Positions 49,119 through 54,907 of a stretch of DNA of 64,000 bases are shown piece after piece. Both the position numbers and the translations under genes were made by a program. Each line of letters starts with the position of its first letter. The first letter of the stretch is position 1. The stretch is from positions 434,001 to 498,000 of the forward strand of contig NZ_BLJE01000001.1 of NCBI RefSeq assembly GCF_009811795.1, in the 5' to 3' direction. The notes below the pieces were generated by a model, which was given only the letters and a program-made list of their open reading frames with translations, did no database searches and was not told the DNA's origin. This DNA comes from Litoreibacter roseus (GTDB taxonomy: Bacteria > Pseudomonadota > Alphaproteobacteria > Rhodobacterales > Rhodobacteraceae).

Positions 49119-49172
49119 TGAAAAGTAATGGAGGCGAGTACCGGAATCGAACCGGTGTACACGGATTTGCAA
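49119..49172. repeat. Island attachment site, distal copy (tRNA-Cys 3' fragment)
   Basis: 54 bases identical to 54824-54877, covering the 3' part of the tRNA-Cys gene from the anticodon loop to past the CCA. After GGATTTGCAA the sequence departs from the tRNA, so this copy is not a functional tRNA. It marks the far end of the integrated island. Confidence 0.92.
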
Positions 49173-49658
49173 GACTTAGCATCTATCTGAATTTATTGAT
49201 AAAAATGTTTAGATAACGAGTGAAAATCGGCGGAACAGATCGTGAATGTTTAGACGTTATTTTTGCCGATTTAGAAGTTTTTTTGGGCCTCAAAAAGTCA
49301 ATTGAGGTAAGGCTAATATTGCATCTAAATATTAACGATTTCACTTGGAAACCCACCTAAAAATAGCCCGATGATGTGATAGGATGGTTACAATTTACTT
49401 CCTTCCAAACGGTCGTGATCTCAGCGCCGAAATGATTCGAATAGCGTTGGCACTTGATTGGTCGAAATTTTCTGGTGGTAGGTATTCCAATTTGAAGCTG
49501 AACGACGCGAGAAAGAAACACTGAAAAGCTGCTGCAAGACAGAAGGGGCATACGACTGTTTTTCACAGATGAAAGCTCTCGGCCCAATCCGGACCTTTTG
49601 TTAAATGACCAACGCCGTGCTGAAGTTTCACCAAAGCGGACGTCATCCTATGATATAT
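49173..49658. other. Island left-end non-coding region
   Basis: About 490 AT-rich bases between the distal attachment site and the RT stop codon. No gene is convincing. It contains TGTTTAGAC at 49247-49255, a sequence also present twice beside the other end of the island (54766 and 54778), so it may include recombinase arm sites. Confidence 0.45.
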
Positions 49659-51425
49659 CTACGTCGCAGTGCCATCAGCGATGTCACACAATGTCTGAAG
49701 CAATGGATAGAATTCGCTGCAATCGACTTTACCTCGATTGGCGCGGATAACCTTACTCGCGAACTCGCCTTTTCCATATTCACTTGGCTGTAGCTTTTCG
49801 CCCTTTTTTTGTCTTAGCTTCGGTTTCCTTCCATCAAGCTCATACTTTAACCATTCGTCAGGAAAAAGCATCTCGATGTAAACATCCTCAACCAAACCTG
49901 CGGGCTTCGGGATCGGAACAACATAAAGATTACTTGAAACCTTGTAGTAGGTCTTTGAGCCATCAACCTTGGCTAAAGAGTTGGTCTCACGTTTTATAAA
50001 AGTCCACATACCTTCGCTTTGTTTGTCATTGTCAACGATAACAATCACAGGCTTCTGCCCCTCAACGGCGTGAAATTTTTTTGTTCTCTCAATGTGAAGT
50101 TTGCAAAACTTAACTAAGTTTCCTCCACCTCCGCTTACATCAAGGAAGCGGTCCGCAGATTTTGAGTGCTTTACAAAATCAACGCCCCAGTGGTCTCCAT
50201 TTGCCTTTTTCCCTTTTGTTGGAAATCTTGAGATATCTACAAGGTTCGTGGCCACCCGTGCGTTACTTTTGTGCCAGAGTATAGCCTCCTTTAGATACGT
50301 GTAGTCGGTTTTTCCTTCGCTAATGATCAATGGCTTCGGCGAAATATGGATACGATGGTAGTGAAAGTAGTCACCGGAAAGCCGCAAATAATGTGGTGCT
50401 GGATTTGAACTAGTGTAGTTTCGAAGAGGTTGGATGGTGTTAGACCGATCTTTGATATCGCAAATGTGCCTTAGTTTCCCCCAAACCTGGTCGGAAGAAA
50501 GCGCATCATATTTAATGTTTAGTTTGTTGCTGGCGTGAGCTTCGCCTTTAGTCATCATCGCGTAAGCACAGTATCTTGCACCCTTGTAGTAGTGCTTCTT
50601 GATATTAACCCCTTCATTGACTGTAAGGTTGGTTACAGACTGCCAATGAGTGCGACCCTGCATGCGGGTTTTAGAAGTGTTGACTTTGAAACCACAACGA
50701 GTGATCTCGCGCTCTAAGCTGGGCCCAACGATCCATTTCTCAGGGATAGGAAATGGAAAGGCTATCTTACTTGGAAACTGGCGCAGATTTGTAGAGAAAG
50801 AAATATCATCAACGTATCTCGAGTAGGTGCACCTGTGCTCTTTGGCCAACTTCTGAAGTGCGACATCTAGAGGTTGTGCCAGAAACTCTGAGATTATTGG
50901 TGAAGATGGCGCCCCTTGAGGTAACGAGTTTTGAAAGCAGGCCAACTGCGAAATTGCGGTCGCTGCCTTCTCTCCAAGCTCAAACTTATTGTGTTTTAAG
51001 AAGAATCCCCTGACCCGGCCAAAATTGAAACTCGGAAAGAAATCTTCGAGATCAGCATTAAAGACAAACCGTCGAGAAGTGTGTCGACATGCATTGGTGT
51101 AGATCGACAGATCACGTTTCTTTTGAAACCCATGAGACAAAACTCTCATCGGATTCTTTGGAGTGCCAAAAATATCAAGGTAGCATTGATACAGTAGCCT
51201 GCTCAGACGAGATTGCATGAACTTTAAGTCTGGATTGGGAGCTAGAATTTTCCTGTCTGCACCGTTCTTTTTCTTAATTTCAAAAGCCTGGTATTTGTTC
51301 ACATCGGCGGTCTTATAAATCGACTTTGACAAAAATTTGGGTTCGACACCAAGTAGATGAGCAACGTCTGAAAGGTCTGAACATCGCCGCAATTCGGCAA
51401 GACCATGATGGTAAATTTTTTTCAT
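49659..51425 (-). CDS. Retron reverse transcriptase with C-terminal TOPRIM domain (Ec67-like)
   Basis: 588-aa protein. Residues 1-300 are a retron-type RT: the retron-specific NAxxH (NACRH, 111-115), motif A NADLEDFFPS with D124, LPQGAPSSP (168-176), the catalytic YVDD (204-207; most retrons have YADD) and VTNLTVN (264-270) where retrons have the VTG motif. Residues about 365-480 are a TOPRIM nuclease domain: LIISEGKTD with E370 and VIVDNDKQ with D465 and D467. This RT-TOPRIM layout is that of retron Ec67 and its relatives, which act in phage defence. ATG lies 8 bases after the predicted msr-msd RNA; no Shine-Dalgarno is obvious. Confidence 0.92.
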   Translation of the reverse strand: MKKIYHHGLAELRRCSDLSDVAHLLGVEPKFLSKSIYKTADVNKYQAFEIKKKNGADRKILAPNPDLKFMQSRLSRLLYQCYLDIFGTPKNPMRVLSHGFQKKRDLSIYTNACRHTSRRFVFNADLEDFFPSFNFGRVRGFFLKHNKFELGEKAATAISQLACFQNSLPQGAPSSPIISEFLAQPLDVALQKLAKEHRCTYSRYVDDISFSTNLRQFPSKIAFPFPIPEKWIVGPSLEREITRCGFKVNTSKTRMQGRTHWQSVTNLTVNEGVNIKKHYYKGARYCAYAMMTKGEAHASNKLNIKYDALSSDQVWGKLRHICDIKDRSNTIQPLRNYTSSNPAPHYLRLSGDYFHYHRIHISPKPLIISEGKTDYTYLKEAILWHKSNARVATNLVDISRFPTKGKKANGDHWGVDFVKHSKSADRFLDVSGGGGNLVKFCKLHIERTKKFHAVEGQKPVIVIVDNDKQSEGMWTFIKRETNSLAKVDGSKTYYKVSSNLYVVPIPKPAGLVEDVYIEMLFPDEWLKYELDGRKPKLRQKKGEKLQPSEYGKGEFASKVIRANRGKVDCSEFYPLLQTLCDIADGTAT

Positions 51426-51432
51426 GTGAAGT

Positions 51433-51557
51433 GATCCGCAAGCACTCTTTCGTCTACACGGTAATTAACCGGAATGTAAGGATACATAAGGGGAAAGCCC
51501 ACTGACCTTCTGTATAGCCATCACAATACATGATGGAAGGATCTGCTTGCGGATCTT
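51433..51557 (-). ncRNA. Retron msr-msd non-coding RNA
   Basis: Immediately upstream of the RT. The 12-base a1/a2 inverted repeat GATCCGCAAGCA (51544-51555, complement at 51433-51444) closes an interval of about 100 nt holding three hairpins on the minus strand: CCATCA/TGATGG (stem 51518-51523 with 51531-51536), ATACAGAAGG/CCTTATGTAT (51506-51515 with 51482-51491, one mismatch), and an AT-looped CGGT/ACCG stem extended by TACA/TGTA (51455-51478). This order and the closing repeat are those of a retron RNA. The branching G and msd end cannot be fixed from sequence alone. Confidence 0.82.
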
Positions 51558-51562
51558 TCGCT

Positions 51563-51590
51563 ATGATAACTGTTTCTATGCGCAACTCAA
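51563..51590 (-). promoter_or_regulatory. Promoter of the retron RNA/RT
   Basis: On the minus strand a -35 TTGAGT (51585-51590) and a -10 TATCAT (51563-51568) are separated by 16 bases. The expected transcription start falls at about 51556, at the beginning of the a1 repeat, which supports the RNA boundaries. Confidence 0.65.
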
Positions 51591-51614: not shown

Positions 51615-52601
51615 CTAGAATGGTATTTCATCGCCATACGCCTCAGCGGAGGGCGGGTCGGGAAGCGCCCCTGTTGGCAGTGGCAGATTTGTCGCTGTGA
51701 ATAGATTGAGTAAGTCCTCTCTATCCATGAACATGAGCTGGCTTCGCTTTGTAGCGTCCAGTCTTTGACCCAACCAGTTCTTGGCTTGCTTGGTGATTTC
51801 CCCACCCGCTACGATGAATGCATGATCAACTAGAGCTTTCTTGCTAGTCTCAGGGTCGAAAATCTCGTGCCCCAACATCATCAAAGACTGTTGATGTATT
51901 TCTGAGATGTTTCTGTTACTGCCCTTGCTCATGCCTGCCGCATCCAGCTTTCCCTTCTTCGCTTGAATCCCGAAGTAGAGAACATGTCGCGTTGGCAACA
52001 CGTAGCGCATCCATAAGTCTTTTCCGTATTCTAGGGCTTTATCTTTGTGGCCGGCTGCTTGAATTCGGTGAAACCCCAGCTGCCTGAACAGCGGCAGTAG
52101 TACCTCTTCGATCAGCTCGTCTTCCGAACACTTACTAAGGTAAGCATTTAGGGCTTTACGTCGCTCTATTTGTTTGGGTGTAAACGGATAATGAGGATTG
52201 GCCGCTTGTGAAATTGTTTTTGTTCCAATGTGTCTGACATAGAAGTGCCCGTCTTCACCGTAGTAGCCCTCATACCCCTCTCTAGAGAGCGGTTTATTCA
52301 AGTATCCGAGTGCAAGCGCGCGTTCGGGGTCATCATCTTCTGCATCGGATTTGTGCATTAGAACTCGTAAAACATGTACAAATCTTTCGGGCAGAACGTT
52401 TGGACCTGGCGTCGGTTCAGCCAAGAGCTGAGCCATTACGTCTGACGTCCATGCCCAGCGGGTTGAACCGTCATGAACGTAGTCCATGTCGCACTCCTCG
52501 AAGAACCGCGTGATATAGCTGCTTGATCTATACGGAAAATGTGGTGCATCCCCTATCACGGCTTCAGCCAGATTTCTAAGGTTGCGGTCTTTGAATTTCA
52601 T
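51615..52601 (-). CDS. Restriction-endonuclease-like protein with AbiJ-like N-terminus
   Basis: 328-aa protein of unknown function. The N-terminal RSSSYITRFFEECDMDYVHD and GSTRWAWTSDVMAQLL resemble the AbiJ N-terminal domain of abortive-infection proteins. The central LEYGKDLWMRYVL (E191, D195) and YFGIQAKKGK (213-218) fit a PD-(D/E)xK-type nuclease with Gln-x-Lys replacing Glu-x-Lys. I start at the ATG at 52601 with AAAGAAAG before it; 29 more codons are open upstream. It lies between the integrase and the retron RNA, so it is either a second defence protein or a retron accessory. Assignments are by eye and tentative. Confidence 0.65.
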   Translation of the reverse strand: MKFKDRNLRNLAEAVIGDAPHFPYRSSSYITRFFEECDMDYVHDGSTRWAWTSDVMAQLLAEPTPGPNVLPERFVHVLRVLMHKSDAEDDDPERALALGYLNKPLSREGYEGYYGEDGHFYVRHIGTKTISQAANPHYPFTPKQIERRKALNAYLSKCSEDELIEEVLLPLFRQLGFHRIQAAGHKDKALEYGKDLWMRYVLPTRHVLYFGIQAKKGKLDAAGMSKGSNRNISEIHQQSLMMLGHEIFDPETSKKALVDHAFIVAGGEITKQAKNWLGQRLDATKRSQLMFMDREDLLNLFTATNLPLPTGALPDPPSAEAYGDEIPF

Positions 52602-52811
52602 TTTTGCTTTCTTTAATGAAGTGAATTGGCAAAAAGGGAAGTAGCGAAGCACAATGTCTGCTTTAGCTCGAGACGATAACCAAATCATATTCGCCGCGAA
52701 AGCCCGTTCGCCATCGATGTGCCTAGTGTTTGACGCATGAAGCGAATGATAGGGCCAAACTCTGCGGCAGGTGTGACTGCGTAACAGATCATGGGACCAT
52801 TTGTCTTTGCC

Positions 52812-53819
52812 CTATCCTCGGCTTTGATCTGTGCGCATCTGTTGCGCCCTCTGGGCTCTGATGCGCTGGCGCACTTTTTTCGTGTAGTGCTGGACCATGG
52901 CCGGACTCTGTCCAGTGACTGAGGCTATAAGGTCGTCGCCACAACCCGCCTCAAGAAGCTCACAGGCCGCGTTGTAGCGCCAACTGTGGATGTCATACTC
53001 CAACGCGCCGATACGCTCTCTGACTTTCCTGACGGCCGCTGAGGCGCCCCTGTAGGACCAACGGTTCGATCCGTATTCGTTTGTCAGGATGAAAACAGAA
53101 TTGCGGCTGGCGGCGTCTAGGGCGGTCTGTAGCTCAGGTAGAATAGGAACCCAAAGTTCCTTTGACGTTTTGCTTTGTCGTACCCAGACCGCGCCGTCTT
53201 CGATGTTTGACCAGCGCATGTTGAGAACGTCCCCGATCCTTTGTCCGGTGCAGACGCACAGTTCCATCACGAGCCGTTCGCGCGTGCCGAGATCACACGT
53301 TGCCCGGTAAGCCTCGATCAATTCGCGCGGCCACGGATCACGCTCGCGCTTTTGCGTTTTCAACTCTGGCACGCCGCGTGCAGGGTTGTTGTCGCGCCAG
53401 CCAAGATCGACGCAGTGTTCCATAAGAATTCGCAGAACGCGGAGCGAGTAATTTGCGAAATAGGCTTTGCCAGCATTTGCATCCCGCATCCGTATAACGT
53501 CTTTGCGCTGCATCTTGGCAGGGTTTGCTTCGCCCATAATCCGGCGGAAGAAATCCAGATGTTTGTCGTAGTCGAGGCCCGTACGGGGCTTCAAGTTTTT
53601 GTAGCGTGGTGACTTCCGGTAGTCGTCTATCAGGGCGTTGAAATTGCGTGAGACCACACGTCTGGGCTTGTCCTTCTGAGTGAGAATGCCTGCGTATTCG
53701 CTCCAGAACTCAGGTGTCCCGAATTCGCTTTGGAATTTTTGTGAAGGCCAGCCTCGGCGCTGGAAGTAAATTCCATTGCGCTGGCGATAGACGTGTTTGG
53801 GAAGCTCACGCTTTGCCAT
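52812..53819 (-). CDS. int: Tyrosine recombinase / phage-type integrase
   Basis: 335-aa integrase. The N-terminal SAM-like core-binding domain spans about residues 55-150, and the catalytic domain has R194 (TGQRIGDVLNMRW), the lysine near 218 (QSKTSKELWVP), H278-x2-R281 (IHSWRYNAACELLEAG) and Y312 (VTGQSPAMVQHYTKK). It should recombine the 54-bp tRNA-Cys sites. The gene points away from the intact tRNA, about 1 kb from it. Confidence 0.93.
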   Translation of the reverse strand: MAKRELPKHVYRQRNGIYFQRRGWPSQKFQSEFGTPEFWSEYAGILTQKDKPRRVVSRNFNALIDDYRKSPRYKNLKPRTGLDYDKHLDFFRRIMGEANPAKMQRKDVIRMRDANAGKAYFANYSLRVLRILMEHCVDLGWRDNNPARGVPELKTQKRERDPWPRELIEAYRATCDLGTRERLVMELCVCTGQRIGDVLNMRWSNIEDGAVWVRQSKTSKELWVPILPELQTALDAASRNSVFILTNEYGSNRWSYRGASAAVRKVRERIGALEYDIHSWRYNAACELLEAGCGDDLIASVTGQSPAMVQHYTKKVRQRIRAQRAQQMRTDQSRG

Positions 53820-54823
53820 GACACATATCTATCCCGTCAAATTCGTCGCCATCGCACGAACCCGCAAGTTCGATTTCGATCCTTCGGCCTTCAACAACCA
53901 CTCGGGAAACAGATTTTCCCGCGCTTTCAAGCGTGTTCAACAAGCGGAGTGCCCTCTGTTCTATCGTTGTTGCCGACATTGCCGTCGATACCCTTCATAT
54001 CTGCGAGCGATATGAGTACCATATATAGTGTTTGTACTTGGTATCAACAACTACATGTTGTGTTTTGAAGGTTTTCTGTTGGTCTTTGCGGCGTTGATGG
54101 CCGATTAAGGTTTGATTTAGCGACAGAAGGTCGGTGTAAGCATATAATATCAATAGCTTAGCCTGTATCGATGGGGCAGCCAAGCAATGTTTAGGTTGAA
54201 ATTGGAAACGCATTGATTCCGCGGTCGGCACTTTCTGAGCCGGGTTTGCGCATCACTGGCGATGAATGAAGTTCATTACTTCATGCAAACCATCCGACTT
54301 TATGTTTCGAAGCGTTTCCGAACATCTGGGTAATGATGGTTGGAGAGCCCTATGAGTGGGCGAAGTCATGGGGAGCCTGATCTATGGTGCACTTAATCGG
54401 TTTGGTGTCACTAACTGCATATCCCAACAAGATAGTGAGGGGAGGAATGTCACGCCACCCACCCCCTCCGATCCTTGCGTCTCCGGGGGCGGGGGCTAGT
54501 GTTGTTCACCGCCGGAAGCTGGAGGCTTCCTTGCGAATGGCGCCATCGGAAAACAATGAAATTTAGGTTCCTGTGCGTTGCGATGCCTTCGATTTTCGTG
54601 ACCGTTGCACAGATGCCAACCGTTTGGGCATCTGTAGGATAACCCGCCGCTTCATCTCTGGGGAGCTGATTTCAAATCTGTCGCGAAATCGGCCTCTGAC
54701 ACTCGTCAGGGGGGGTGTTTTTTCAGGGTTTGTGGTGTCAAAAACAGAACAGAACAAAAACAGAATGTTTAGACATTTGTTTAGACGGCGACGCGTTGCT
54801 TCGCCTAAAATCAGCTAAGTCAT
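53820..54823. other. Island right-end non-coding region
   Basis: About 1 kb between the integrase start and the tRNA-Cys site. I find no convincing gene. Visible are a perfect 9-bp stem ACAGATGCC/GGCATCTGT with a 9-base loop (54609-54635) and two TGTTTAGAC repeats 12 bases apart (54766, 54778). The last 80 bases resemble the sequence left of the distal attachment site. It likely contains the integrase promoter and attachment arms. Confidence 0.5.
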
Positions 54824-54877
54824 TGAAAAGTAATGGAGGCGAGTACCGGAATCGAACCGGTGTACACGGATTTGCAA
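54824..54877. repeat. Island attachment site, tRNA-proximal copy
   Basis: 54 bases identical to 49119-49172, forming the 3' half of the intact tRNA-Cys plus 10 bases beyond its CCA end. The repeat ends at the anticodon loop, a common crossover point for tyrosine integrases. Confidence 0.92.
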
Positions 54878-54907
54878 TCCGCTGCGTCACCACTCCGCCA
54901 ACTCGCC
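54834..54907 (-). tRNA. tRNA-Cys (GCA)
   Basis: 74 nt including encoded CCA. Acceptor stem GGCGAGT pairs with ACTCGCC, discriminator U precedes CCA as in tRNA-Cys, the T-arm is GGTTCGATTCC and the anticodon loop is TTGCAAA with GCA. It is the target of the adjacent island, whose attachment sequence rebuilds the 3' half. Confidence 0.95.

Follow-up and report, generated by a model that had tools for sequence, protein, structure and literature searches.

The stretch of DNA analysed here (64 kb at its full length, hereafter the window) carries on its minus strand, with high probability, a complete type I-C retron with an Eco2-like mechanism, which is the cargo of an interchangeable defence element located in a tRNA-Cys gene. 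Type I-C retrons are an established family, already named in NCBIfam and PADLOC, and the tRNA-Cys carrier is of greater interest than the retron, which is itself ordinary in kind. The features discussed below are reported in Table 1.

Table 1. Position and basis of the features of the retron, of the neighbouring genes and of the tRNA-Cys element (window coordinates).
Feature	Position	Strand	Basis
Retron ncRNA (msr-msd), a1 to a2, 123 nt	51433-51555	-	Fold, covariation, held-out covariance model
a1 arm, 12 nt	51544-51555	-	Repeat, covariation
a2 arm, 12 nt	51433-51444	-	Repeat, covariation
Predicted branching guanosine (= Eco2 rG15)	51543	-	Alignment; the branch itself is presumed
msr RNA stem-loop	51518-51536	-	Covariation
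Predicted reverse-transcribed msd template, ~63 nt	51446-51508	-	Presumed ends, placed by analogy with Ec67
Promoter-like TTGAGT-16-TATCAT	51563-51590	-	Well placed, chance level
RT-Toprim fusion protein, 588 aa, ATG start	49659-51425	-	ORF list, profile matches, alignments
RT part, ~residues 1-365	50331-51425	-	Border by alignment to Ec67
Toprim part, ~residues 366-588	49659-50330	-	Border by alignment to Ec67
orf357, putative PD-(D/E)xK-type nuclease	51615-52601	-	Listed ORF 51615-52688, 357 aa
Tyrosine integrase of the tRNA-Cys element, 335 aa	52812-53819	-	Profile matches
57-aa ORF, 14-nt overlap with integrase start	53806-53979	-	Conserved in element family
att repeat, far end: 54-nt copy of tRNA-Cys 3' part + flank	49119-49172	.	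Exact repeat
att repeat, tRNA end: 54 nt, within/beside intact tRNA-Cys	54824-54877	.	Exact repeat
tRNA-Cys(gca), attachment gene	54834-54907	-	tRNA call
Element arm beside tRNA	54734-54823	.	Matches only in integrase-bearing loci
Element arm at far end	49173-49260	.	Common to related elements

The RT-Toprim protein and the retron RNA

The fusion of an RT to a TOPRIM nuclease, which the original prediction had read from the ORF, was upheld by the profiles: the 588-aa protein scored 600.8 bits with NF038237, the NCBIfam model of the Ec67 retron RT/endonuclease family (cut-off 450), and 567.4 bits with the PADLOC model RT-Toprim_I-C. Moreover, the solved Ec67 aligned with residues 10-583 (E 1.6e-88), the Toprim part included. 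A different origin of the RT, as a group II intron maturase, a DGR or a DRT, could be read into its weak matches to the group II maturase model (32.1 bits), Drt2 (24.6 bits) and Drt3a (24.3 bits), but these are far under the respective cut-offs of 300, 390 and 200, and a covarying retron RNA lies directly upstream of the RT. This origin, to which we give a negligible probability, is refuted by the profile scores, by the RNA covariation and by the match of the held-out covariance model described below; none of the computable conditions that would have overturned the original prediction held. On its sequence, and by profile scores rather than by a tree of all RT classes, the RT of the window is assigned to the retron lineage, in the Ec67 fusion family of type I-C.

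The motifs NAxxH (N111, A112, H115), YVDD (aspartates D206 and D207) and VTN (residues 264-266) are all present in the ORF, as predicted. To compare them among relatives we aligned 19 proteins, that of the window among them, from the 22 loci described below without L039, L043, L044 and L050, whose frames are broken or cut, and with the addition of L159; both the protein and the RNA sets were drawn from part of the listed I-C records. The RT aspartates and the His of NAxxH were invariant, as were E370, G371, D374, D465, D467, E518 and K552 of the Toprim part (19/19 proteins). YVDD, which had been considered unusual, is indeed rare but not unique, being found in the window and in L052 from Shewanella (2/19). 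The departure from VTG is also real, with N in the third position in the window alone (1/19), but VTG was present in just 47% of 102 retron RTs surveyed (PMC4244168), hence VTN does not exclude membership of type I-C. Position 516 is occupied by Tyr in place of Ser513, a metal-site residue of Eco2 which is among those whose change to Ala abolished defence, as described in PMC12405507; this correspondence of residues was made by eye from the Ec67 alignment, and the column is variable among relatives.

Upstream of the RT, a1 and a2 form the perfect 12-bp repeat that had been predicted, and the RNA between them held as well, but with its end at 51555 and 7 bases from a2 to the ATG, instead of at 51557 with 8. 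The segment 51426-51570 folds with -45.7 kcal/mol (z -3.78), and none of 200 shuffles was as good. The upstream regions were read at 22 loci, including the window, and the 20 with recognisable a1/a2 arms were aligned, excluding L044, where a2 is lost to the chosen start codon, and the divergent L045. Three features were invariant in all 20 aligned RNAs: A-G-A where a1 ends and just beyond, GAGT as the opening of a2, and the equivalent of the branch G. Over the two helices tested, in 19 distinct RNAs, two-sided changes occurred in 18 of 20 pairs: the a1/a2 stem covaries among homologues, with such changes in 11/12 pairs and 99.1% of cells paired, and the msr stem-loop has them in 7/8 tested pairs, its outermost pair being broken in 11 of the 19 distinct RNAs. 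Paired cells amounted to 95.5% over both helices, against at most 42.7% when the partners were slid by 1-3 columns, and 0/500 shuffles came up to the real alignment in paired cells, in two-sided pairs or in covariation score; further pair types were not above the shuffles (458/500 as high). RNAalifold, run unaided, found 20 pairs, 17 of which with compensatory change. Among the three internal hairpins originally proposed, the first, corresponding to the msr stem-loop, is supported across relatives, but the others are single-sequence predictions. The ends of the msd template are predicted, by analogy with the Ec67 msDNA.

A covariance model was built from 17 RNAs, with the window, its nearest relative (L047) and a near-duplicate (L037) excluded. 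In the 64-kb window this held-out model had the segment 51433-51555 as sole match up to E 10 (50.4 bits, E 1e-10). When it was run on 13 loci, strong matches were observed in L159, L044 and L047 and a weak one in L045 (E 1.4e-4), with no match in the other 9, among them some that hold other RT types or miss the 5' end, and L046, which is more distantly related. The L047 RNA scored 57.7 bits with a covariance model excluding L047. Rfam at gathering thresholds reported two tRNAs only, and no retron RNA, in the window. From these comparisons we regard the ncRNA as a genuine retron RNA, the structure of which is conserved; it adds a well-supported RNA structure for an RT-Toprim type with many alphaproteobacterial members.

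The promoter that had been proposed upstream of the RNA is present, 7 nt before a1 and with 9/12 matches to the consensus, but sites of this kind are not above chance in the region (3 observed, mean of 3.6 in shuffles), and the outcome was mixed when the sequence before a1 was examined for promoters in 20 RNAs, that of the window among them. Because of its chance-level frequency, the promoter was dropped as evidence for the retron.

The tRNA-Cys element and its genes

The two att copies are 5,705 bp apart and enclose the integrase, orf357 and the retron, all on the minus strand. The segment has the features of an integrative element of tRNA genes, namely a tyrosine integrase and att repeats from the 3' end of the tRNA, and, as far as sequence can tell, this 5.7-kb element in tRNA-Cys has the retron as its cargo. 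A match to the 57-aa ORF precedes the integrase in 14 of the 15 loci examined, including the window, the sole miss being L108, which is cut at the contig end; in L136 the overlap with the integrase is 23 nt, and the peptide is identical in L161 and L140, which are probably one and the same element. By analogy, the 57-aa ORF is a possible excision factor. We also observed that its position resembles that of the int-overlapping gene needed for PICMI excision. The element carrying the retron was absent from the original prediction.

The tRNA-Cys gene is an integration hotspot in the genus: a second, partial copy of it was found at about 5.7 to 53 kb in 7/21 genus genomes. A clean empty site was sought in the genus and none was found. 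In G016, the stretch at this tRNA-Cys spans 53 kb, and a scan of 8 ORFs in it showed genes for relaxase, type IV secretion and BREX. In G174 (L140:6600-6658) a truncated tRNA-Cys copy lies between integrase and phage terminase genes, and the arrangement suggests a tandem insertion at this site. In the window, the segment 49058-49118, just outside the far att, is a partial repeat of the tRNA-side arm, perhaps the scar of an earlier tandem element.

It might be argued that the island is a genomic island scar, inert and no longer mobile, as the three long ORFs scanned with profiles are the integrase, orf357 and RT-Toprim, with no transfer or phage structural gene, and the repeat outside the far att suggests a past rearrangement. 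Nevertheless, no damage is seen in the integrase, the 57-aa ORF, the two att copies or the two arms, and the same parts are common to elements of other genera with different cargo; we consider an inert remnant unlikely and keep to a mobile carrier in what follows.

The product of orf357, for which a start at M30 fits most of the homologues read, had no match in Pfam, PADLOC, NCBIfam, PHROGs and PDB sequences. Its AlphaFold2 model (pLDDT 70, pTM 0.47) had the modification-dependent endonuclease AspBHI as best PDB fold match, at an E of 1.2e-4 and a TM of only 0.27, followed by FokI and MspJI; AspBHI alone was under E 0.001. D224 and the QxK residues Q242xK244 are invariant in 12/12 homologues, and MspJI uses a D...QxK-type motif. 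The product of orf357 is a candidate type IV-like restriction endonuclease with a PD-(D/E)xK nuclease fold; a restriction-like nuclease is likely, though putative, and may add a second layer of defence to the island.

Homologues of orf357 are common on plasmids (46 records, 36 at 60-80% identity) and in viral contigs (15 loci), and VapBC-type genes were just upstream in 4/4 enterobacterial plasmid copies opened. At three loci the gene immediately precedes an I-C retron: the window; G018, where the two lie within another integrase island; and L159. In the latter, a viral contig, the orf357 homologue is followed by retron RNA and RT-Toprim (L159:5070-7997) among apparently Mu-like phage genes, a label that comes from a reading of the ORFs with no profile search behind it. 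When 22 orf357 loci were scanned (15 viral and 7 plasmid, some cut at contig ends), an I-C-type RT was nearby only in L159, and in a tree of 20 proteins the retron-adjacent label has to change three times, possibly by one gain and two losses. On these grounds, a role of orf357 as fixed partner of the retron was rejected.

Related elements and their cargo

Integrase matches with E <=1e-40 were present in 5/21 genus genomes, three of which, our own included, at 79% identity at least; with E <=1e-60, they were present in 37/295 genomes of the family, 13 at 65% or above and 24 at ~38-52%. We viewed over longer stretches 13 distinct loci with an integrase at about 65% identity or above (the window, G018, G007, G159, G200, G369, G358, G051, G047, G174/L161, G327, L162 and L163), leaving G237, G230, G245 and G033 at their original length. 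The two att ends could be located in 8 of the 13, the contig ending first in G369, G358, G047 and G174. The element of G327 is decayed (~2.0 kb, with a truncated integrase), and the seven undecayed ones, window included, range from 5.24 to 5.88 kb: about 5.71 in the window, 5.83 in G018, 5.86 in G007, 5.76 in G159, 5.88 in G051, where the integrase is in two pieces, 5.30 in G200 and 5.24 in L162. Compared pairwise, six of them (without L162) agree in the integrase, in portions of the sequence upstream of this gene and at the two ends, and their middles otherwise show few short matches only; the integrase is inverted in the window and in G018 with respect to the other four. Matches to the tRNA-side arm were confined to genomes or contigs carrying an integrase of this kind, with none at 17 tRNA-Cys loci from genus genomes that lack a close integrase, some of these loci being truncated by the contig end.

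In the undecayed elements PADLOC recognised, besides the RT-Toprim of the window (567 bits), AriAB (PARIS, 650), a GmrSD-type protein (Orf5 model 551.9, HEC-06 293.8), a type IIG RM (1575), Dsr1 (1217) and HerA with SIR2 (560 and 187, respectively); in G200 the element holds a staphylococcal-nuclease-like gene, and PADLOC gave no strong defence match. A recognised defence gene is therefore present in 6 of 7 undecayed elements, that of the window among them, a proportion that describes these seven alone. Since relatives with its kind of integrase and ends are loaded with genes for other anti-phage systems, the tRNA-Cys element would be a small interchangeable carrier of defence. In the titles and abstract openings retrieved from the open-licence literature no description of tRNA-Cys elements of this kind in Rhodobacterales was found; the integration hot spots of Sinorhizobium meliloti, from 3.24 to 88.98 kb, are a related subject (PMC11476347).

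Islands combining integrase and defence without transfer genes are known in Pseudomonas (PMC12595487), and small satellites in Vibrio (PMC10803314). The Pseudomonas tmRNA islands I23, I44 and I55 resemble our elements in having direct repeats and a tyrosine integrase at an RNA gene, in their defence cargo and in lacking recognised transfer genes, but are described with the smallest just under 20 kb, the largest over 70 kb, an alpA and a shared region of ~18 kb (PMC12595487), whereas the family of the window is 5.2-5.9 kb long, in tRNA-Cys and in Alphaproteobacteria. The PICMIs of Vibrionaceae, reported to protect against phages and to average 6.7 kb (PMC10803314), are alike in the small size, the integrase and, in many, a small gene overlapping int; they are defined there by int, alpA and prim and located at fis, whereas the window element is at tRNA-Cys, and int, orf357 and RT-Toprim make up all of its long ORFs. 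The antiviral hotspots of P4 and P2 similarly offer, within a mobile element, a slot for interchangeable anti-phage systems, PARIS included (PMC9122126); however, by the profiles run, the three long ORFs of the window element are not P4 or P2 genes. Integrative mobilizable elements have a relaxase or an oriT of their own; as for a relaxase, no long ORF is left for one in the window element.

These likenesses bear on the way in which the element may move, as a phage satellite of the sort represented by PICMIs or by the tmRNA islands of Pseudomonas, or in cis with an ICE that shares its tRNA. The similar size of the seven undecayed elements, the small ORF overlapping int, as in 21/35 PICMI subfamilies (PMC10803314), and the relaxase, type IV secretion and BREX genes of the G016 stretch speak for such a movement; by contrast, there is no further primase-sized ORF, no packaging site was identified and a helper is only postulated. 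We hold it possible, with the balance leaning against it. Slightly more doubtful, and offered tentatively, is the wider proposal of an undescribed family of 5.2-5.9 kb tRNA-Cys satellites of Alphaproteobacteria, helped by a phage or an ICE and carrying one swappable anti-phage system each; if it were true, the similar size would reflect packaging, e.g., as multimers, and the retron would be one cartridge. Coming back to the interchangeable tRNA-Cys defence element, should these elements of 5-6 kb be mobile, they would rank as very small carriers of anti-phage systems and form a natural series, with a single backbone combined with a retron, PARIS, GmrSD-like, type IIG RM, Dsr1 or SIR2-HerA.

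Proposed working and occurrence of the retron

The retron of the window shares with Retron-Eco2 (Ec67) the domain order, the catalytic residues, a1/a2, the context of the branch G, a single msr stem-loop and the RT directly downstream of the RNA, and differs in YVDD, VTN, the Tyr at the Ser513 position and the tRNA-Cys mini-element as carrier. Ec67 itself resides in a P2-like prophage. By this likeness, a1 and a2 would fold the ncRNA, and the RT would reverse transcribe it from the branch G into a branched msDNA of ~63 nt with the 2',5' link of such molecules, a length that is itself predicted. As in Retron-Eco2, the msDNA-RNA would keep the RNase of the fused Toprim switched off, and degradation of the msDNA by a phage nuclease would free it; the Toprim would then cut RNA, and phage growth would stop. 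For Retron-Eco2, PMC12405507 describes an msDNA-bound trimer with an occluded Toprim having RNase activity, denB escape mutants, and the degradation of msDNA by a DenB-type phage nuclease, upon which the Toprim is released, RNA is cleaved and the expression of late phage genes is lost; the release step is also a model in that paper. As the window protein has only ~33% identity with the E. coli Ec67-type protein (L051), the trigger and the RNA substrate may differ. The own tyrosine integrase of the element would place its 5.7 kb, with the retron and the putative nuclease gene, in tRNA-Cys.

The nearest relative with a full-length frame is L047, from plasmid pPR12A202 of Rhizobium indicum, with 60% protein identity; it has an RNA of the window type, but is plasmid-borne, has TTG for VTG and YADD, and shows no orf357 match in its 11.7-kb stretch. 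Genomes with a strong match to the PADLOC model (E <=1e-90; some of the matches fall short of a full-length RT-Toprim) numbered 10/394 in the host family and 7/385 in the host class, our own genome being included in both counts. The RT query found no relative in the viral contig set, and one locus in the genome contig set, a broken copy from Thalassorhabdomicrobium marinisediminis (Rhodobacterales). This relative (L003:126-1042) is truncated and frameshifted, with 88.9% DNA identity over 838 aligned columns. Relatives such as this one also indicate an alphaproteobacterial host.

The decay of such a close copy demonstrates that the retron lineage does decay, and, together with N266, found in the window alone among 19 proteins, it could indicate a retron which still makes msDNA but whose defence has been lost through the VTN change or the divergence of the Toprim. 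On the other hand, the other catalytic residues checked are intact, the ORF is open and the a1/a2 pairing of the RNA is still perfect, and we judge this loss improbable; a retron active in defence remains our reading, and the natural VTN variant makes the role of VTG testable.

Among the Roseobacter-group retrons on record there is that of Sulfitobacter faviae, with an NDT effector (PMC10221251). In G027 (L058:2682-13792) we observed another I-C retron near a SIR2-HerA pair, an integrase and tRNA-Cys. Finally, a second, distant retron-like RT (G000:C2:1165319-1166113, L002) is present in the same genome as the window.
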